Made by a program: the position numbers and the translations under genes. DNA of 23,176 nucleotides, from IMG/VR virus record IMGVR_UViG_3300030107_001746, positions 2,725-25,900 of that record, one strand, 5' to 3'. The first letter of the stretch is position 1; each line of letters begins with the position of its first letter. Positions 1-16,361 of the stretch are shown here, one piece after another. The notes under the pieces were generated by a model that saw nothing but the letters and a program-made list of their open reading frames with translations, was not told the origin of the DNA and did no database searches. This DNA is from a virus.

Positions 1-86
1 GCTAGGGGGTTTTGCTTTTCCCAGTGTTTTACTAATATCTCTAGCTCTTTAATCCTGGCTTTAGCTCTTGCTATCTGTTCCTCCAT
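1..86 (-). CDS. Small coiled-coil protein, 3' end beyond the left edge
   Basis: An open frame starts at the ATG at 86-84 on the minus strand and runs off the left edge without a stop, giving at least 28 residues beginning MEEQIARAKARIKELEIL. The visible part is charged, with hydrophobic residues spaced as in a helical coiled coil. Its start lies inside the last codons of the membrane-protein gene to its right (16-nt overlap, different frame), which is typical of translational coupling in this genome. No family is recognisable from so short a piece. An accessory of the neighbouring membrane protein is possible by position only. Confidence 0.5.
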   Translation of the reverse strand, partial: MEEQIARAKARIKELEILVKHWEKQNPL

Positions 87-259
87 CCGTTTGGATCCCT
101 CTTTTTAACTTCTAATCTAGCAATAGCCTGCTCTGCTGCATTCATGCGATGGAATAGCTCTATTAGGTCTCTATGTCGTTTATTTGTGTAGTTTGAAATA
201 ACCATCAATAGGCCAGAGACAGCAGCCCCTATCAAGGCTGCGAGTAGTTCTTGAGGCAT
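71..259 (-). CDS. Small single-TM membrane protein, holin-like in layout
   Basis: This 62-residue protein has a short N-terminus (MPQEL), one membrane segment at about residues 6-23 (LAALIGAAVSGLLMVIS) and a highly charged C-terminal helix (about 25-62, rich in Arg, Lys and Glu). The ATG at 259 has an AAGG ribosome site eight bases upstream. Size and layout fit small phage membrane proteins such as one-TM holins or holin accessories, but no family motif proves this and no endolysin gene is visible beside it. It diverges from the plus-strand cassette that starts at 305 and overlaps the next tiny gene to the left. I am fairly sure the gene is real and unsure of its function. Confidence 0.6.
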   Translation of the reverse strand: MPQELLAALIGAAVSGLLMVISNYTNKRHRDLIELFHRMNAAEQAIARLEVKKRDPNGWRNR

Positions 260-304: not shown

Positions 305-742
305 ATGCCTGAAAAATCAACCCCAGACACCAAAGACAAAAAAGGAATCCTTGGAAAACTGGAAGAAATCACCCCAGACAAAGAAGAACAGGTTGCATTA
401 ATTGGCGTGGCCGTGAGACTAGGAATTGTGGTGTGGTCAGGATTTATCTTGACATTAGCCTACGTTGACCTACCAGGATTCCAGAAACAAAACTTCGATC
501 CGACCTTCATTGCCAGCGTGTTTACGGGAGCCCTCAGCACTTTTGGCTTGGCTACAGCTAAAGATAAGAAGAATGGAAATGGTGTAAGTAAAGAAGAAAT
601 GGAAGCAATGATTGCTAAAAGTAATACAGCACAGACTGAGCAAATCATTAGAGTACAAACTCCTTTGACTATTAATGGAGCTGAAGTTGTGCAAACTGAG
701 CCTGTCGTTAAAAAAGCTGTTGACCCAGAGGTGAAAAATTAA
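305..742 (+). CDS. Two-TM phage membrane protein, possible holin
   Basis: This 145-residue protein starts at the ATG at 305. A longer TTG start at 251 would add 18 residues overlapping the divergent gene and is unlikely. It has a charged N-terminus (1-28, Lys/Asp/Glu-rich), a membrane segment at about 30-53 (VALIGVAVRLGIVVWSGFIL), a loop YVDLPGFQKQNFDPT, a second hydrophobic stretch at about 67-84 (FIASVFTGALSTFGLATA), and a long charged C-terminal tail. Two TM helices with both ends predicted cytoplasmic fit a class II-like holin or a membrane anchor. It opens the exported-protein cassette and shares one base with the next gene (TAATG at 740-744). Gene call secure, function tentative. Confidence 0.65.
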   Translation: MPEKSTPDTKDKKGILGKLEEITPDKEEQVALIGVAVRLGIVVWSGFILTLAYVDLPGFQKQNFDPTFIASVFTGALSTFGLATAKDKKNGNGVSKEEMEAMIAKSNTAQTEQIIRVQTPLTINGAEVVQTEPVVKKAVDPEVKN

Positions 743-1257
743 TGAAAAAACTTCTAATCCTGCTACTGCTGACAGCTCCAGTTTGTAAGGCAGATATGAG
801 GCACTCAATAACCACCTCAGCAAAAGTAACTTTAGACGCTGCTTATAGTTCCGCAAATCGGATTGGGACAACTTACAGCGTTACAGGTAACAACATCACA
901 CCGAGTACTACTGTTTCAGGCACTACGACTTCTGGAGCGATTGGAGGATTAACGGCTGATTCGGTTACAGCAGGAGTACCAGCAATTGTAGATACTGACT
1001 TCGCTATAACCACTGCTGGTTCTGCCTATTCGATGACGGAAAGTCTAACGGTTGGTGATGCAGTTCAAAGTGCAACTACCGTCACTGGAGGGGTTGTTCC
1101 TGCATTACCTTCTCTTGGTTCAACAGTTACAGGAAGTGGTGGTGTTTCTGGTGCAACCATAACAAGTTTAAGTTCGGGGATTCATACCTGTGGTGGCACA
1201 ATGGGAGCTGGTTCTAGTTGCACGGCACAGACCATAGTTGAATCGGTGGTGGACTAG
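742..1257 (+). CDS. Exported Ser/Thr/Gly-rich protein with signal peptide
   Basis: This 171-residue protein has a classical signal peptide: Lys2-Lys3, hydrophobic run ILLLLLTAPV, and a likely signal peptidase I site after CKA (residue 17). The Cys before it does not sit in a convincing lipobox. The mature part is rich in Thr, Ser, Gly and Val (for example TYSVTGNNITPSTTVSG), suggesting a beta-rich secreted or surface fold. It holds only two cysteines, near the C-terminus (HTCGGTMGAGSSC), which could form a disulfide outside the cytoplasm. ATG 742 overlaps the previous stop by one base, and its own TAG overlaps the GTG of the following micropeptide. From memory, similar proteins occur in marine cyanomyoviruses, so this may be a conserved phage export cassette. 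Function unknown. Confidence 0.7.
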   Translation: MKKLLILLLLTAPVCKADMRHSITTSAKVTLDAAYSSANRIGTTYSVTGNNITPSTTVSGTTTSGAIGGLTADSVTAGVPAIVDTDFAITTAGSAYSMTESLTVGDAVQSATTVTGGVVPALPSLGSTVTGSGGVSGATITSLSSGIHTCGGTMGAGSSCTAQTIVESVVD

Positions 1258-1352
1258 TGCATGTTCCAATTCTTGTTTGTTTTCTCGCTTGCATACTTAT
1301 TGCAGGATTTAATTTCCTGATGTGGAAACACTATATGGATATACATAAGTGA
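1257..1352 (+). CDS. 31-aa membrane micropeptide
   Basis: A short frame begins with GTG at 1257, sharing its G with the upstream TAG, and ends with TGA at 1350-1352. That TGA overlaps the GTG of the next gene by four bases (GTGA). The 31-residue peptide begins MHVPILVCFLACILIAGFNF and ends in LMWKHYMDIHK, so residues 4-22 form one membrane helix with a short polar tail. Without it, the flanking genes would be separated by 91 bases in an otherwise overlapping operon. The exact stop/start joins on both sides are the main evidence. Function unknown; small membrane partner or coupling ORF are both possible. Confidence 0.55.
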   Translation: MHVPILVCFLACILIAGFNFLMWKHYMDIHK

Positions 1353-1783
1353 AGCGTTATTTACTGCTATTATTATTATTAAATAACTGGCAAAAGCCAG
1401 TCATAGCAGTGCCAGTTGTGCCAAATTTTTCCTCAGGATCAATGTCGGCTGTCACACGTACCACTCAAAACATAACAGAAACAATAGTCTCGACAGATTA
1501 CAATACTGGTCATTCGTTATCTATAACAGGGGCAAATTTAGAAATAGATGGATCAACAATTTTTCCTAATCCTACAACTATTAATCAAACTGTAAATGGG
1601 ACAACTTATTCATGGACTGGAGCCGATCTAACAACAATGCCCAACGTAACTATCAAAAACCCAGGGGCAGCGTTCCAAGCGAATTTCCATTATGTCTCAC
1701 CTGGGCTTTCAAATGTAACAAACATAACTCGCACAACTCAGGTAGAAAGCGTAACAGAAACTACCTCTACATTCTCCCAATAA
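1349..1783 (+). CDS. Exported protein with signal peptide
   Basis: This 144-residue protein starts at GTG 1349, within the stop of the micropeptide (GTGA). It has a signal peptide with Lys2-Arg3, a leucine run (LLLLLLL) and a likely cleavage after VIA near residue 20. The mature domain starts VPVVPNFSSGSMSAVTRTTQ and is rich in Thr, Asn and Val with no cysteine, suggesting a beta-rich secreted or surface protein. The ending (RTTQVESVTETTSTFSQ) looks like a natural terminus. The following gene overlaps its 3' end in another frame. I recall relatives in marine cyanophages but cannot check. Role unknown; adhesin, virion-associated surface protein or envelope modifier are options. Confidence 0.7.
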   Translation: MKRYLLLLLLLNNWQKPVIAVPVVPNFSSGSMSAVTRTTQNITETIVSTDYNTGHSLSITGANLEIDGSTIFPNPTTINQTVNGTTYSWTGADLTTMPNVTIKNPGAAFQANFHYVSPGLSNVTNITRTTQVESVTETTSTFSQ

Positions 1784-2382
1784 TATTCGCACTTAATCCT
1801 TTAAAAGTATTAGCAAATACCTCCCAAACCGCAGCTCCCGTAGCCAATTCCAGTGGTTCAGTGACCAACATGGCTATACAATCTTTGCAAGGTAATATGA
1901 TACAAAACCAGTATGGTAATGGAATAGTTTGTCAAGGCCCAATGCTCACGGCATCTCCATTCCTAACTGATAGTTTCCAGCAGCAATCTCCCAAGGAATA
2001 TTGGTATGATTCGCCTGTCTATTCAGATACTGGTGATCTTCTTTATCATCAAAAAGTAAGAACAGGACAGAAAGATTCTTTAAGTTTAAATTGGGGTTTT
2101 TCAATTACATTTAGCCTTCCATTAGATAATTCATTACAAAAGCGTTGTAAGGCTATGGCAGATAAGTGGCTTGCAATCCAAGATCAAAACCTAAAAGACA
2201 AGGAATTATCCTGGCACGTTGCTCGTCTTAAAGAGTGCGGTGCGCTTAAGAAATCTGGAATTGAATTTGCTAAAAATTCTGTCTTCTATTCTTTATGTGA
2301 AGACGTTCTAGTTCTACCAAAAATGGGACAAGTCTTACCTCACAGGCACAATATCCCTGAAATCAAAATAGAAAATAATTAG
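1771..2382 (+). CDS. Exported four-cysteine protein, start codon unresolved
   Basis: The frame reads through RKRNRNYLYILPIIFALNPLKVLANTS, shown here only to describe its three parts: basic n-region, hydrophobic core and a VLA cleavage site, that is, a good signal peptide. No ATG, GTG or TTG lies just upstream. The only ATG that keeps it is at 1612, which would prepend about 49 polar residues and overlap the previous gene by 172 nt. The next standard start, GTG 1861, removes the signal. I set the left end at an ATT (1771) as a placeholder. The mature part has SGSVTNMAIQ, then VCQGP, KRCKA, KECGA and SLCED, four cysteines that could form two disulfides. Alternatives are a -1 frameshift from the preceding gene or a sequence error. 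It ends the cassette. Confidence 0.6.
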   Translation: MLPIIFALNPLKVLANTSQTAAPVANSSGSVTNMAIQSLQGNMIQNQYGNGIVCQGPMLTASPFLTDSFQQQSPKEYWYDSPVYSDTGDLLYHQKVRTGQKDSLSLNWGFSITFSLPLDNSLQKRCKAMADKWLAIQDQNLKDKELSWHVARLKECGALKKSGIEFAKNSVFYSLCEDVLVLPKMGQVLPHRHNIPEIKIENN

Positions 2383-2522: not shown

Positions 2523-3257
2523 CTACTTTGATTTTACCTTATTTTTCAATGGTGGTAAACCTCGTTTCTCCCGATAAGCAATAGTTCGTCTTTCAGATAA
2601 GTTTGGACGCTCCACTTTCTTACCTAATATCTTTTTAACTCTATTTACTATCTGCTTGATGATGGGCTTGACGGCTCTCAAAAGCAATGGTGTAGAAAGT
2701 GCTGCTGTAGTTGCTACGAGCGTTATCGACCCAGTTTTTACAACTTGTGGAACAGTTGGTATTGCATCAATTATCTGTTGCTGGACACTTAATTTTTTAT
2801 ATCTAGTTACACAACGGTTTCCTACCAATTCATACTTAATAATCTGTTTAGTACCTTCTTCTACTTTTGTCCCAACTTCAGGCGCACCATCAGGAGGACA
2901 TTCTTCTGGCTTTGCTTTTGGTACTTCTGGTGCTGGAGGGGTTTCTGGTTGCTCGAATCGTTGAGGTTTTGTTTCTTCTGTGTAAATAAGTTCTTCTGGA
3001 GTAAACTCCATTGCGTTATAAGAAGGATATTGAGCATCGCAAACAACAATATTTCCCTTTGGATCGTTACTTACTAGGTTGTCATTTTCTCTTGAACTAC
3101 GTCTTGTTTCTACGCAGCCAGGAATATTAACAACAGGAAATCCCATAGGCACAACCACAGGGACATTGGGAGTATTAATTTTTGGAGCGTTTAAAATATA
3201 AGTTCTTACTGGTTCAATCCGAATAGACTTAACTTCTATTCTGGGTATCTCTGTCAA
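2523..3257 (-). CDS. Proline-rich single-TM phage protein
   Basis: This 244-residue protein starts with TTG at 3257, inside the upstream TGA (TTGA overlap), so it is translationally coupled. The N-terminal 50 residues are rich in Pro, Val and Ile (for example APKINTPNVPVVVPMGF). A middle segment carries NDPKGNIVVCDAQYPSYN, followed by a Pro/Glu-rich linker (about 101-125), one hydrophobic segment at about 176-195 (GSITLVATTAALSTPLLLRA), and a very basic C-terminal tail. Four cysteines (48, 73, 120, 149) all lie before the TM. It has no N-terminal signal. From memory, proteins of this type sit beside structural genes in T4-like marine cyanophages. A membrane-associated or virion protein is plausible; function unknown. 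Confidence 0.65.
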   Translation of the reverse strand: MTEIPRIEVKSIRIEPVRTYILNAPKINTPNVPVVVPMGFPVVNIPGCVETRRSSRENDNLVSNDPKGNIVVCDAQYPSYNAMEFTPEELIYTEETKPQRFEQPETPPAPEVPKAKPEECPPDGAPEVGTKVEEGTKQIIKYELVGNRCVTRYKKLSVQQQIIDAIPTVPQVVKTGSITLVATTAALSTPLLLRAVKPIIKQIVNRVKKILGKKVERPNLSERRTIAYREKRGLPPLKNKVKSK

Positions 3258-3493
3258 AACTTAGGAATACTAAATCCACCAGCACCACCAGCTTTAGGCT
3301 TTGCAGTAGGAAGAACAGGGCCAGAGAGTCCAGGCATTTTTAACGATCCAGTGACTTGTTCAATTAATTGCTTCTTTAACTTTTCTTGATTCTCTTCATT
3401 AGTGATCCATAGATAGCCAAAAACTCCTCCCCCTGTAATTGCAGCTACAAGGACAAAAGAGATTACACTAATAATGTTTAAAATTTTTTGCAT
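3254..3493 (-). CDS. Small signal-anchor membrane protein
   Basis: This 79-residue protein has an N-terminal membrane segment at about residues 7-30 (ISVISFVLVAAITGGGVFGY) after a short MQKILN lead. An amphipathic, Lys/Glu-rich helix follows (33-52), then a Pro/Gly tail ending GGAGGFSIPKF. The TM could be a signal anchor or an uncleaved signal. It overlaps the next gene by four bases. The layout resembles a small protein I recall near structural genes of marine cyanophages. Together with its downstream partner it may form a membrane pair; that is inference. There is no ribosome site of note and the ATG is unambiguous. Confidence 0.65.
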   Translation of the reverse strand: MQKILNIISVISFVLVAAITGGGVFGYLWITNEENQEKLKKQLIEQVTGSLKMPGLSGPVLPTAKPKAGGAGGFSIPKF

Positions 3494-3543: not shown

Positions 3544-3777
3544 CTATTGGGCTTCTTCCTCTGTTACCTCTGTATTTTCTGGGTTCTCTTCAGGTTCAGC
3601 AGCAGCAGATGAAAGTAATTTAGCTTGTGCATCTTTAACACCAACTAAAGCACCTTCTATGCGATCAATATTCCTTAAAGATAATACTTTTGCTTCTTCA
3701 AGTTTTTGAAGATTTTGCTTTTCAGCATCTAGTTTTTGTTGATATTCTTCAACAAGAGTTGCGATAATATCAGACAT
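3544..3777 (-). CDS. Small coiled-coil protein with acidic tail
   Basis: This 77-residue protein is nearly all alpha-helical: residues 5-57 show heptad-like spacing of Leu, Ile and Val (for example VEEYQQKLDAEKQNLQKLEE), followed by an acidic tail (EPEENPENTEVTEEEAQ). It has no TM segment and no cysteine. It lies between the 96-aa conserved phage protein and the small membrane protein, six bases after the former. A coiled-coil trimer or a chaperone for fibres is possible, given its place at the end of the fibre region. No family recognised. Confidence 0.6.
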   Translation of the reverse strand: MSDIIATLVEEYQQKLDAEKQNLQKLEEAKVLSLRNIDRIEGALVGVKDAQAKLLSSAAAEPEENPENTEVTEEEAQ

Positions 3778-3783
3778 AATTAA

Positions 3784-4074
3784 TTAAGAAGGTGTATTTG
3801 ATTTTTTAGCAACTAAAAAAGCAGTGTAGTCAGTCTTTACTTGATCCGTCCACGCAGCATTGCAGTGTCGCTGAACATCTGCATCCTCGCCTGATATATC
3901 TGTATTAACTAGGTTGTCACTTGCATCTAGTGTTCCTGGTACTAATACTTTTCTATGAAAGGTACGAGTCAGTTCTTTACCATCATCTTTTATAATTGTC
4001 GCATTTCTGACCTGTACCGACCATCTGTTAACGATCTCTATCTTATCGTTCTCTTGTGTTTTAGTTAAGCTCAT
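3784..4074 (-). CDS. Conserved small phage protein, fibre region
   Basis: This 96-residue protein begins MSLTKTQENDKIEIVNRWSV. Its pattern, VQVRNATIIKDDGKELTRTFHRKVLVPG followed by a C-terminal helix with NAAWTDQVKTDYTAFL, resembles a short protein found in the fibre regions of marine phages (recollection). It is soluble and has a single Cys in the C-terminal half. GGAG lies 12 bases before its ATG. The 60 bases between it and the preceding fibre gene hold nothing clear. Likely a fibre-assembly or virion-associated factor by context; function not established. Confidence 0.6.
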   Translation of the reverse strand: MSLTKTQENDKIEIVNRWSVQVRNATIIKDDGKELTRTFHRKVLVPGTLDASDNLVNTDISGEDADVQRHCNAAWTDQVKTDYTAFLVAKKSNTPS

Positions 4075-15086: not shown

Positions 15087-15670
15087 GCTGCCACCTGATC
15101 TGTTGTTACATTCATACTAATAATTGTAGAGCCTGTAAATATTTCTCCATAGACCACTGGCAATGTCACCCCTGCTCTTGATGTGTTGGGAGTACCACCA
15201 AAAGCAAAAGAAATCCGTGGGTCTTGATCATTTTCAAATTTTTCTGGCTTTGGAGGCGGCCATAACAAATCCGAAACTCCTGATAAAGCTAAACCTACTC
15301 CAACTCTTACACCTATTCCTGCCAACGTCCCTAAATTACCTGCCATTAAAGCCGCAAAACCTCCACCAGTTGCAATTGACAACCCCACTAAAGCAACTCC
15401 TAGCAAAATCTTTCCAGTTGATCCTCCAGCACCAACAAGAACAGGTACAATTTTCATTTCTTCTAAAAACGGGTGATGAATTTCTTCTTCACCTATTTCA
15501 TTTCCATCAGTTGTAACTTGATAATATCTTTCATTCATGTGAGCCTCTAACTGGGGCCAATTCATTAATAAAAACCTAATACAATCTCCAACGCTATTTA
15601 CATGCGCTTCTAATTTGCTATGCCCTGTGATCTCTTTTAGATCACCATATAATTTAATTGTCTTGAGCAT
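15083..15670 (-). CDS. I: Tail assembly protein I-like
   Basis: This 195-residue protein has an N-terminal beta-grasp-like part (MLKTIKLYGDLKEITGHSKL), then a long Gly/Ala/Val/Leu-rich hydrophobic stretch (about 76-135, with ILLGVALVGLSIATGGGFAA). A Pro/Asp-rich segment follows (LLWPPPKPEKFENDQDP), then a C-terminal end (LPVVYGEIFTGSTIISMNV). This matches lambda gpI-type tail assembly proteins in layout and length. It overlaps K by 17 nt and J by four. In lambda, I is needed for tail-tip assembly and does not remain in the mature virion; I infer the same here. Confidence 0.85.
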   Translation of the reverse strand: MLKTIKLYGDLKEITGHSKLEAHVNSVGDCIRFLLMNWPQLEAHMNERYYQVTTDGNEIGEEEIHHPFLEEMKIVPVLVGAGGSTGKILLGVALVGLSIATGGGFAALMAGNLGTLAGIGVRVGVGLALSGVSDLLWPPPKPEKFENDQDPRISFAFGGTPNTSRAGVTLPVVYGEIFTGSTIISMNVTTDQVAA

Positions 15671-16361
15671 AGCGATACCTTCCTCCCGTACATTTTAGCA
15701 ACCATTCAGAGTATGGTTCCTGACAACTTAAGCGATCTGCTAAATGATGTAAGACTTCCCCATTTAAAAATATTGCAGCATGGTTTAAGCCCTTACCCAT
15801 AATCGACATTAACAAAACATCTCCATTCTCTAGTTTTTCATCTGGCTTCAATAAACGAAAATTTGAAACCTTTGCTGCTTCCTCAAAAGCAGGGTTTTCC
15901 AAAAACTCTTCAGGTGTTGTAGGCCTTTCCCAATCAATTAATTCAATCCCTTTTTCTTCTTTATACCAATCTCTCACTAGACTCCAGCAATCAGTCACAC
16001 CCCAACACCAAGGTCTACCTTTTAATGCTGGTTTATAACCTGTTGGCTCGTAATACCCCCATTGTTCTGTCTTTGGATTAACAATATGCCAAGGTAACTT
16101 TCCTGCTTCACAACTGACTCTATCTGCTTCACTTGCTACGGCTGGAGTTGTTGGATGTGAATGAATCACACTAACTATTTGCCCTAAACTATCTGCTTTG
16201 ACGTAATCTTCTGGATCTAAAATAAAACATTGAAGAGAATAAGTTGATAAATTACGACAAGGATAATAAACTTTTTTACCTTTAATATTTAACAACAAAC
16301 CAACAGATTCCTTTGGGTCTTCTTCTTTAGCGTGTTGCAACGCTTTAACTCTCCAGTCCAT
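15654..16361 (-). CDS. K: Tail tip protein K-like: JAMM peptidase plus NlpC/P60 domain
   Basis: This 235-residue protein has two enzymatic parts, as in lambda gpK. Residues 1-105 form a JAB1/MPN/Mov34-type fold with an intact JAMM motif: Glu18, His67-x-His69, then Ser77 and Asp80 (IHSHPTTPAVASEAD), predicted to bind zinc. Residues about 110-230 are an NlpC/P60 domain with the catalytic Cys125 in GVTDCWSLVRDWY and His194 in GLNHAAIF, with His205/206 as the likely third residue. The cysteine peptidase may cut peptidoglycan peptides during infection. The ATG overlaps the L stop by one base and the 3' end overlaps I. All catalytic residues appear present. Confidence 0.9.
   Translation of the reverse strand: MDWRVKALQHAKEEDPKESVGLLLNIKGKKVYYPCRNLSTYSLQCFILDPEDYVKADSLGQIVSVIHSHPTTPAVASEADRVSCEAGKLPWHIVNPKTEQWGYYEPTGYKPALKGRPWCWGVTDCWSLVRDWYKEEKGIELIDWERPTTPEEFLENPAFEEAAKVSNFRLLKPDEKLENGDVLLMSIMGKGLNHAAIFLNGEVLHHLADRLSCQEPYSEWLLKCTGGRYRYAQDN

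Follow-up and report, generated by a model that had tools for sequence, protein, structure and literature searches.

Organization of the locus

The DNA analyzed in this study, referred to as the window, is a stretch of 23,176 nucleotides comprising positions 2,725 to 25,900 of the IMG/VR virus record IMGVR_UViG_3300030107_001746. Near its beginning, a plus-strand operon of five genes (H, x, m, y, and z) is met by two convergent genes, T and s, after which the tail-fibre genes follow on the minus arm. The features of this region are:

71..259, minus strand: t, one transmembrane (TM) segment followed by a helix; most window-like loci have it divergent from H
305..742, plus strand: H, DUF6450 (PF20048; phrog_721/2714; equals T4-GC218 in S-SSM7), 145 aa, two hydrophobic segments, holin-like candidate
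742..1257, plus strand: x, phrog_564 (equals T4-GC237), 171 aa, predicted to be exported, signal peptide
1257..1352, plus strand: m, micropeptide of 31 aa, one hydrophobic/TM segment, GTG start
1349..1783, plus strand: y, phrog_650/DUF6322 (PF19847), 144 aa, signal peptide, GTG start
1612..2382, plus strand: z, phrog_848/1755 (equals T4-GC235), 256 aa from ATG 1612 within y; internal signal peptide, then a four-cysteine mature domain
2523..3257, minus strand: T, phrog_570 (equals T4-GC234), 244 aa, proline-rich, C-terminal TM segment and cationic tail, convergent arm
3254..3493, minus strand: s, phrog_568, annotated as "plasmid stability", 79 aa, one N-terminal TM segment (PHROG E 2e-11)
3544..3777, minus strand: acidic helical open reading frame, 77 aa, between the cassette and the fibre genes; not claimed as a cassette gene
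3784..4074, minus strand: phrog_6228, 96 aa (E 4e-21); joins the cassette in some sipho- and podovirus loci (24 loci)

An initial annotation had described the plus-strand genes at 305-2382 as a five-gene operon with three junctions sharing one to four bases. All five genes are present and the overlaps amount to 1 nt (H/x), 1 nt (x/m), and 4 nt (m/y). The five products are also as described there, but the start of z at ATG 1612 and its 172-nt overlap with y had been missed. Furthermore, the operon does not stand alone, since the cassette also comprises the convergent genes at 2523-3493, and the window edge is not a biological one, as the contig continues for 2.7 kb beyond it (virus record of 25.9 kb). 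The count of sigma-70 promoters was no higher than chance.

The assignment of H is based on Pfam (E 7.6e-30), PHROG (E 1.1e-43), hydropathy, and the occurrence of the family in 434 phage records. From its alignment with the phrog_650 family (hhalign 86%, E 5e-6), x is likely a paralogue of y. The 77-aa open reading frame gave no confident family match. The product of t is weakly similar to phrog_12220 (E 0.059), the family of Syn5 gp47 and P60 gp38; all three are one-TM and helical proteins adjoining lysis or terminase genes, and they could be antiholin- or i-spanin-like partners.

The start of z lies within y

The predicted signal peptide of z spans the stop codon of y, with no start codon nearby; the single start is ATG 1612, which places z in the -1 frame relative to y. 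For comparison, about 360 loci were gathered and grouped into five clades, namely window-like siphoviruses (A), S-T4-like phages (B), P-SSP7-like podoviruses (C), S-SSM7-like phages and S-TIM5 (D), and MED4-184-like phages (E). In 343 of 345 cases z was found in the -1 frame of y, and each clade has the start of z at a fixed position, counted from the stop codon of y (A -169, B -163/-169, C -109 or -64, D -316, E -136). When the synonymous codons of y were shuffled, the mean probability for an open z frame was 0.042 (A), 0.080 (B), 0.177 (C), 0.006 (D), and 0.035 (E), whereas the frame is actually open in 31/31, 60/60, 47/57, 32/32, and 59/59 cases, respectively; related sequences are not independent in these statistics, yet all five clades show the same pattern. 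In addition, the codon preceding the overlapped Trp in clade A ends in A in all 44 of 44 sequences (CAA, TCA, ACA, or AAA, encoding Q, S, T, or K), compared to a third-base A frequency of 0.38, and the codon before the overlapped TGG is always A-ending in clade B as well.

Two other explanations for the position of z were considered and rejected. A programmed -1 frameshift generating a y-z fusion is ruled out by the clade-fixed start codon inside y and by the conservation of the A-ending codon despite amino-acid changes, and z would moreover end on the wrong side of the membrane in such a fusion. As for a non-canonical start close to the signal peptide, there is no conserved near-cognate codon. 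The true start of z was missed in the annotations examined (P-SSP7, S-T4, S-SSM7, MED4-184); among the GenBank records, S-T4 has no annotation of z, P-SSP7 has a truncated one, and in S-SSM7 the z call extends across most of y. Such calls through y leave the latter under-annotated in many T4-like genomes.

Distribution, gene order and co-occurrence

tblastn searches of GenBank phages yielded 445 matching records for z, 434 for DUF6450, 412 for y, 403 for T, and 85 for x, all of them from cyanophages, marine viruses, or uncultured phages, and at least 600 z matches were obtained in each of three scans of viral contigs. The cassette is present in T4-like, S-TIM5-like, sipho-, and T7-like cyanophages. 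The link to marine cyanomyoviruses made in the initial annotation is correct, and the module common to sipho- and myoviruses extends to podoviruses. Its designation as an undescribed system is only partly correct, because the T4-like version has already been reported as a conserved cluster, its function being unknown, of five hypothetical genes (T4-GCs 218/219/234/235/237) with a plasmid stability protein in 15 of 16 cyanomyoviruses, at variable genome positions (Sullivan et al., 2010; PMC3037559). Matched by position in S-SSM7, GC218 corresponds to DUF6450, GC234 to phrog_570, GC235 to phrog_848, and GC237 to phrog_564, with the plasmid stability protein (phrog_568) alongside and the arms convergent in both versions. 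In contrast to the reported cassette, the genome of the window is siphovirus-like, DUF6450 leads the plus arm instead of being located on the minus arm, and the micropeptide m is added. New in comparison to that report (PMC3037559) is the extension of the cassette to S-TIM5-like phages, siphoviruses, and podoviruses.

The gene order is (t<) H> x> (m>) y> z> T< s< in clades A and E, x> y> z> T< s< H< in clades B and D, and T'> H> y> z> in clade C. m has no family match; by tblastn it was seen only in the window-like siphoviruses of clade A, at many loci there, and was absent from the loci searched in clades B-E. In S-SSM7, a cysteine-rich peptide of 29 aa (MSNEESTCDCCGCVCPCECEDCECCPCGA; locus L005, 6470-6559) is located just upstream of y, near the m slot. 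The podovirus gene T' (P-SSP7 gene 042) is related to T in its TM part (hhalign 93.8%, E 1.7e-7 over 50 columns); in 73 of 73 podovirus loci in which both T' and H were found, they are on the same strand.

That the genes travel together is supported by conserved linkage across the clades and by 14 named complete genomes, in which H, y, and z are either all present (MED4-184, S-T4, S-TIM5, S-SSM7, P-SSP7, Syn9, S-SCSM1) or all absent (Syn5, P60, S-PM2, S-CBS4, PSS2, S-SZBM1, and S-CREM2, the last with a sub-threshold DUF6450 match). As this association is kept in S-TIM5 (H at 11.7 kb, y/z at 155 kb) and in S-SCSM1 (H and y/z 8-9 kb apart), where H is unlinked, it exceeds physical linkage. Three endolysin-carrying records (G015, G016, and S-N03) contain DUF6450, far from the endolysin gene, without y or z.

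These data bear on the mobility idea of Sullivan et al. (2010), according to which the genes would be held together by the "plasmid stability" gene without any common envelope function. The variable positions in cyanomyovirus genomes (PMC3037559) are in line with it, but s is short, has a single TM segment, and gives no more than weak pilin-like matches, the podovirus versions lack phrog_568, and the all-or-none pattern persists in unlinked genes, which makes such a mobility cassette very improbable.

A genome-contig search further revealed 14 cassette loci, which are located in contigs of MAGs, in single-cell assemblies, and in a contig of one isolate. The contigs concerned (L524 and others) are filed as Bacteroidota, Gammaproteobacteria, and other MAGs, and the isolate assembly is from Nonlabens (188-kb contig). 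The cassette DNA in these bacterial assemblies is probably phage contamination; a bacterial origin of the cassette was rejected, the 14 loci being read as phage DNA by inference.

Export signals, membrane topology and predicted structures

Signal-peptide-like N-termini, scored by a simple heuristic of hydropathy and an A-x-A motif, were found in 79-100% of the phrog_564 and phrog_650 homologues, depending on the clade, as compared to 10-43% of shuffled sequences. The predicted export signals noted initially are therefore conserved. A-x-A-like cleavage sites, predicted to be of the signal-peptidase-I type, are present in x, y, and z of the window and in y of P-SSP7, and the lipobox L-[AST]-[GA]-C is absent from the same four signal peptides when read by eye. 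In a set of 42 z sequences, the residue before the predicted cleavage site (A19 in sequence A2) and the cysteines C58, C130, C160, and C180 are invariant, and E153 and D182 are nearly so.

Hydropathy analysis of H revealed two segments in 274 of 293 homologues, three in 18, and one in a single homologue. Positive-inside charges suggest an N-in/C-in topology, and H, being small, with two TM segments and a charged C-terminus, fits the layout of a class II holin. However, comparison with known holin families yielded no match, and H hits only DUF6450 and PHROGs of unknown function. None of the cassette proteins matches an enzymatic, holin, or spanin family in PHROG, Pfam, PADLOC, or NCBIfam.

AlphaFold models of z and y were built from 42 and 47 sequences, respectively, and are of moderate confidence. 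The z model (pLDDT 70) consists of a long hairpin (68-88, 94-115) and one helix of about 42 residues (124-165), while in the y model (pLDDT 79.5) a small beta domain is flanked by two strands of 24-25 residues. Both models have low pTM values (0.38-0.39), as is often the case for oligomer subunits but just as much for poor models. Sequence searches against solved structures yielded no match. Foldseek produced nothing significant either, the best E values being 0.006 (y) and 0.13 (z), with VIA Z below 4; the top rows are mixed and contain several ring- or pore-forming assemblies, which is no more than a hint that y and z may oligomerise. These rings and pores (phage collars, the PA pore, lysenin, FlgH, TraT) fall short of significance, and a ring or pore mechanism is a tentative and rather doubtful proposition.

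Since the best of these non-significant matches include phage collar and tail rings, and since the cassette adjoins tail-fibre genes in the siphoviruses and in S-SSM7, the exported proteins might instead decorate particles or fibres during or after release and aid adsorption to picocyanobacteria. However, no tailed phage is known to have virion proteins exported by Sec. In addition, x, y, and z are not among the virion proteins named in the S-TIM5 records, and the virion-associated adhesins proposed initially find no support, as the cassette proteins have no fibre or adhesin homology. Taken together, a virion-associated module is distinctly improbable.

Relation to endolysins and the lysis slot

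In T7, the holin gene 17.5 is followed by the small terminase (18), the spanins (18.5/18.7), and the large terminase (19). The T'-H-y-z genes of P-SSP7 occupy the corresponding slot between the tail-fibre genes and the small terminase, whereas P60 (gp37), S-CBP1, and S-CBP42 carry an endolysin there. The P-SSP7 cassette resembles the T7 cluster in this position and in having a two-TM protein, and some relatives of P-SSP7 have a lysozyme before the large terminase; it differs in that the proteins are unrelated in sequence and the exported y and z are added. In myo- and siphoviruses, the cassette lies near tail-fibre or psbA genes and not beside known lysis genes.

Endolysins of phrog_10051 (PSS2/S-PM2-type glucosaminidase-C39) or phrog_181 (GH19-like) are present in six of the seven cassette-less genomes and a standalone one in none of the seven named carriers (one-sided Fisher p 0.002, calculated by hand for 7 versus 7 named isolates), a contrast that is suggestive and not clean, because both families were picked from cassette-less phages, and their carriers are enriched in estuarine hosts. 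These endolysins share the podovirus slot or the inferred role with the cassette; unlike z, they are enzymes with recognisable domains, and z was found in none of the 37 records carrying them. Likewise, no species name was common to the 60 C39-endolysin and 60 z matches listed. The split between cassette and endolysin recurs within Kyanoviridae, T7-like podoviruses, and siphoviruses; Syn5 contains neither the cassette nor either endolysin family.

Other lytic domains do occur together with the cassette. In the podovirus contig G007, a lysozyme of 179 aa (PF00959, an independently chosen family) is encoded about 1.2 kb downstream of the cassette gene z. Of the 52 podovirus loci that extend at least 2 kb past z, 11 contain a T4-lysozyme-family gene about 1-2.5 kb downstream of it. 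The search for the two endolysin families turned up nothing in carriers apart from glucosaminidase domains in open reading frames of 731 aa (S-H35) and 954 aa (S-SCSM1), the latter protein having been reported in virions. The podovirus lysozymes next to the cassette weaken a strict replacement of lysozyme by the cassette, which is therefore not a simple lysozyme substitute and more likely a membrane-disrupting part. Two further proteins were noted. P-SSP7_050 (locus L054, 40359-42065; 568 aa), encoded before the large terminase, weakly matches the phrog_38472 endolysin profile at residues 444-542 without any Pfam domain and may hold the lytic domain of P-SSP7 or be a virion protein. At 15654-16361 (minus strand), the window encodes a protein of the tail tip that contains JAB and NlpC/P60 domains and may be a peptidoglycan hydrolase carried on the tail.

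The near mutual exclusion with two endolysin families would also be expected if z (or x/y) were an unrecognised Sec-exported peptidoglycan hydrolase with DUF6450 as pinholin, and the cleavable signal, the four cysteines, and E153/D182 of z would suit such an enzyme. However, its low-confidence model shows no hydrolase-like cleft, and lysozyme coexists in some podoviruses, so that we regard this as quite unlikely. Alternatively, x, y, and z could be displayed in the host's outer membrane during infection and prevent other cyanophages from adsorbing or delivering their DNA, with H, T, and s as assembly factors. Such superinfection exclusion or surface remodelling would agree with the export signals, the neighboring tail-fibre genes, the wide sharing among phages competing for the same hosts, and a very weak Foldseek match (E 0.53) between z and the TraT surface-exclusion decamer. 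Yet it leaves the podovirus endolysin slot, the exclusion of two endolysin families, and the downstream lysozymes unexplained, the cassette proteins show homology neither to exclusion proteins already known nor to PADLOC models, and factors of this kind are usually early and variable; it therefore appears unlikely.

Proposed role in host lysis

Among the options put forward initially, a lysis accessory is the best supported; the initial interpretation as a whole is partly supported, and the observation behind it is right, though incomplete. We propose, with a probability of roughly 0.5, that the cassette serves phages of marine picocyanobacteria as a late module for lysis (envelope disruption). 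This reading is favored because the P-SSP7 cassette fills a slot otherwise taken by an endolysin, because H, y, and z are all-or-none even when unlinked, because z and the two endolysin families are nearly mutually exclusive, because lysozyme genes lie downstream of z in some podovirus loci, because many carriers are on the list of spanin-less phages (PMC6139136), and because DUF6450 occurs without z in three endolysin carriers, as a modular holin could. Against it stand the absence of family matches, significant fold matches, and a lipobox, and the fact that the exclusion is not absolute (the G007 lysozyme, the glucosaminidase domains of S-H35 and S-SCSM1, the weak match of P-SSP7_050). The distance of DUF6450 from the endolysin gene in those three carriers, the location of the cassette in myo- and siphoviruses, the biased choice of endolysin families, the estuarine enrichment of their carriers, and Syn5 with neither system argue against it as well.

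Under the proposed lysis role, H is likely holin-like, as judged from its sequence, and would act as the inner-membrane trigger. The biochemical steps that we infer would continue with the build-up of exported x, y, and z in the periplasm, where they, together with the C-tail-anchored, proline-rich T and the small TM protein s, would assemble into beta-structured oligomers able to breach the outer envelope and thereby do the job of spanins. Where a separate lysozyme is present, it would cut the peptidoglycan; elsewhere this would fall to an unrecognised activity, for which z is a possible source. By overlapping, y and z may couple the translation of two members of a single complex, as in the case of the Rz/Rz1 genes. 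Like Rz/Rz1 (lambda; classes in PMC6139136), y and z are two exported or envelope proteins whose genes overlap in different reading frames, with the same proposed job of breaching the outer envelope. Unlike that pair, y and z carry no lipobox but predicted signal-peptidase-I type sites, y is beta-rich, z is in the -1 frame and extends past y, and there is no sequence match. The most far-reaching version, in which x, y, z, DUF6450, and T constitute a beta-strand-based trans-envelope machine opening picocyanobacterial cells without dedicated endolysin or spanins, is speculative and on the doubtful side; if true, it would represent a class of tailed-phage lysis systems common to unrelated morphotypes that infect the main phototrophs of the ocean, with two partners encoded by overlapping genes.

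Marine cyanophages are the largest single group on the published list of phages without recognisable spanins, for which a fragile outer membrane was suggested (Kongari et al., 2018; PMC6139136). The list includes the cassette carriers P-SSP7, Syn9, P-HM1/2, S-SSM7, S-SM1/2, and P-SSM2/4 as well as the cassette-less Syn5, P60, PSS2, S-CBS4, and S-PM2 (PMC6139136). As an alternative to a fragile membrane, the cassette might do the spanin job, at least where it is present. Lysis by marine cyanophages drives much of the carbon release in the ocean. With its all-or-none occurrence, its apparent alternation with two known endolysin families, and its conserved overlapping gene, the cassette is a concrete candidate for the means by which these phages break their hosts.
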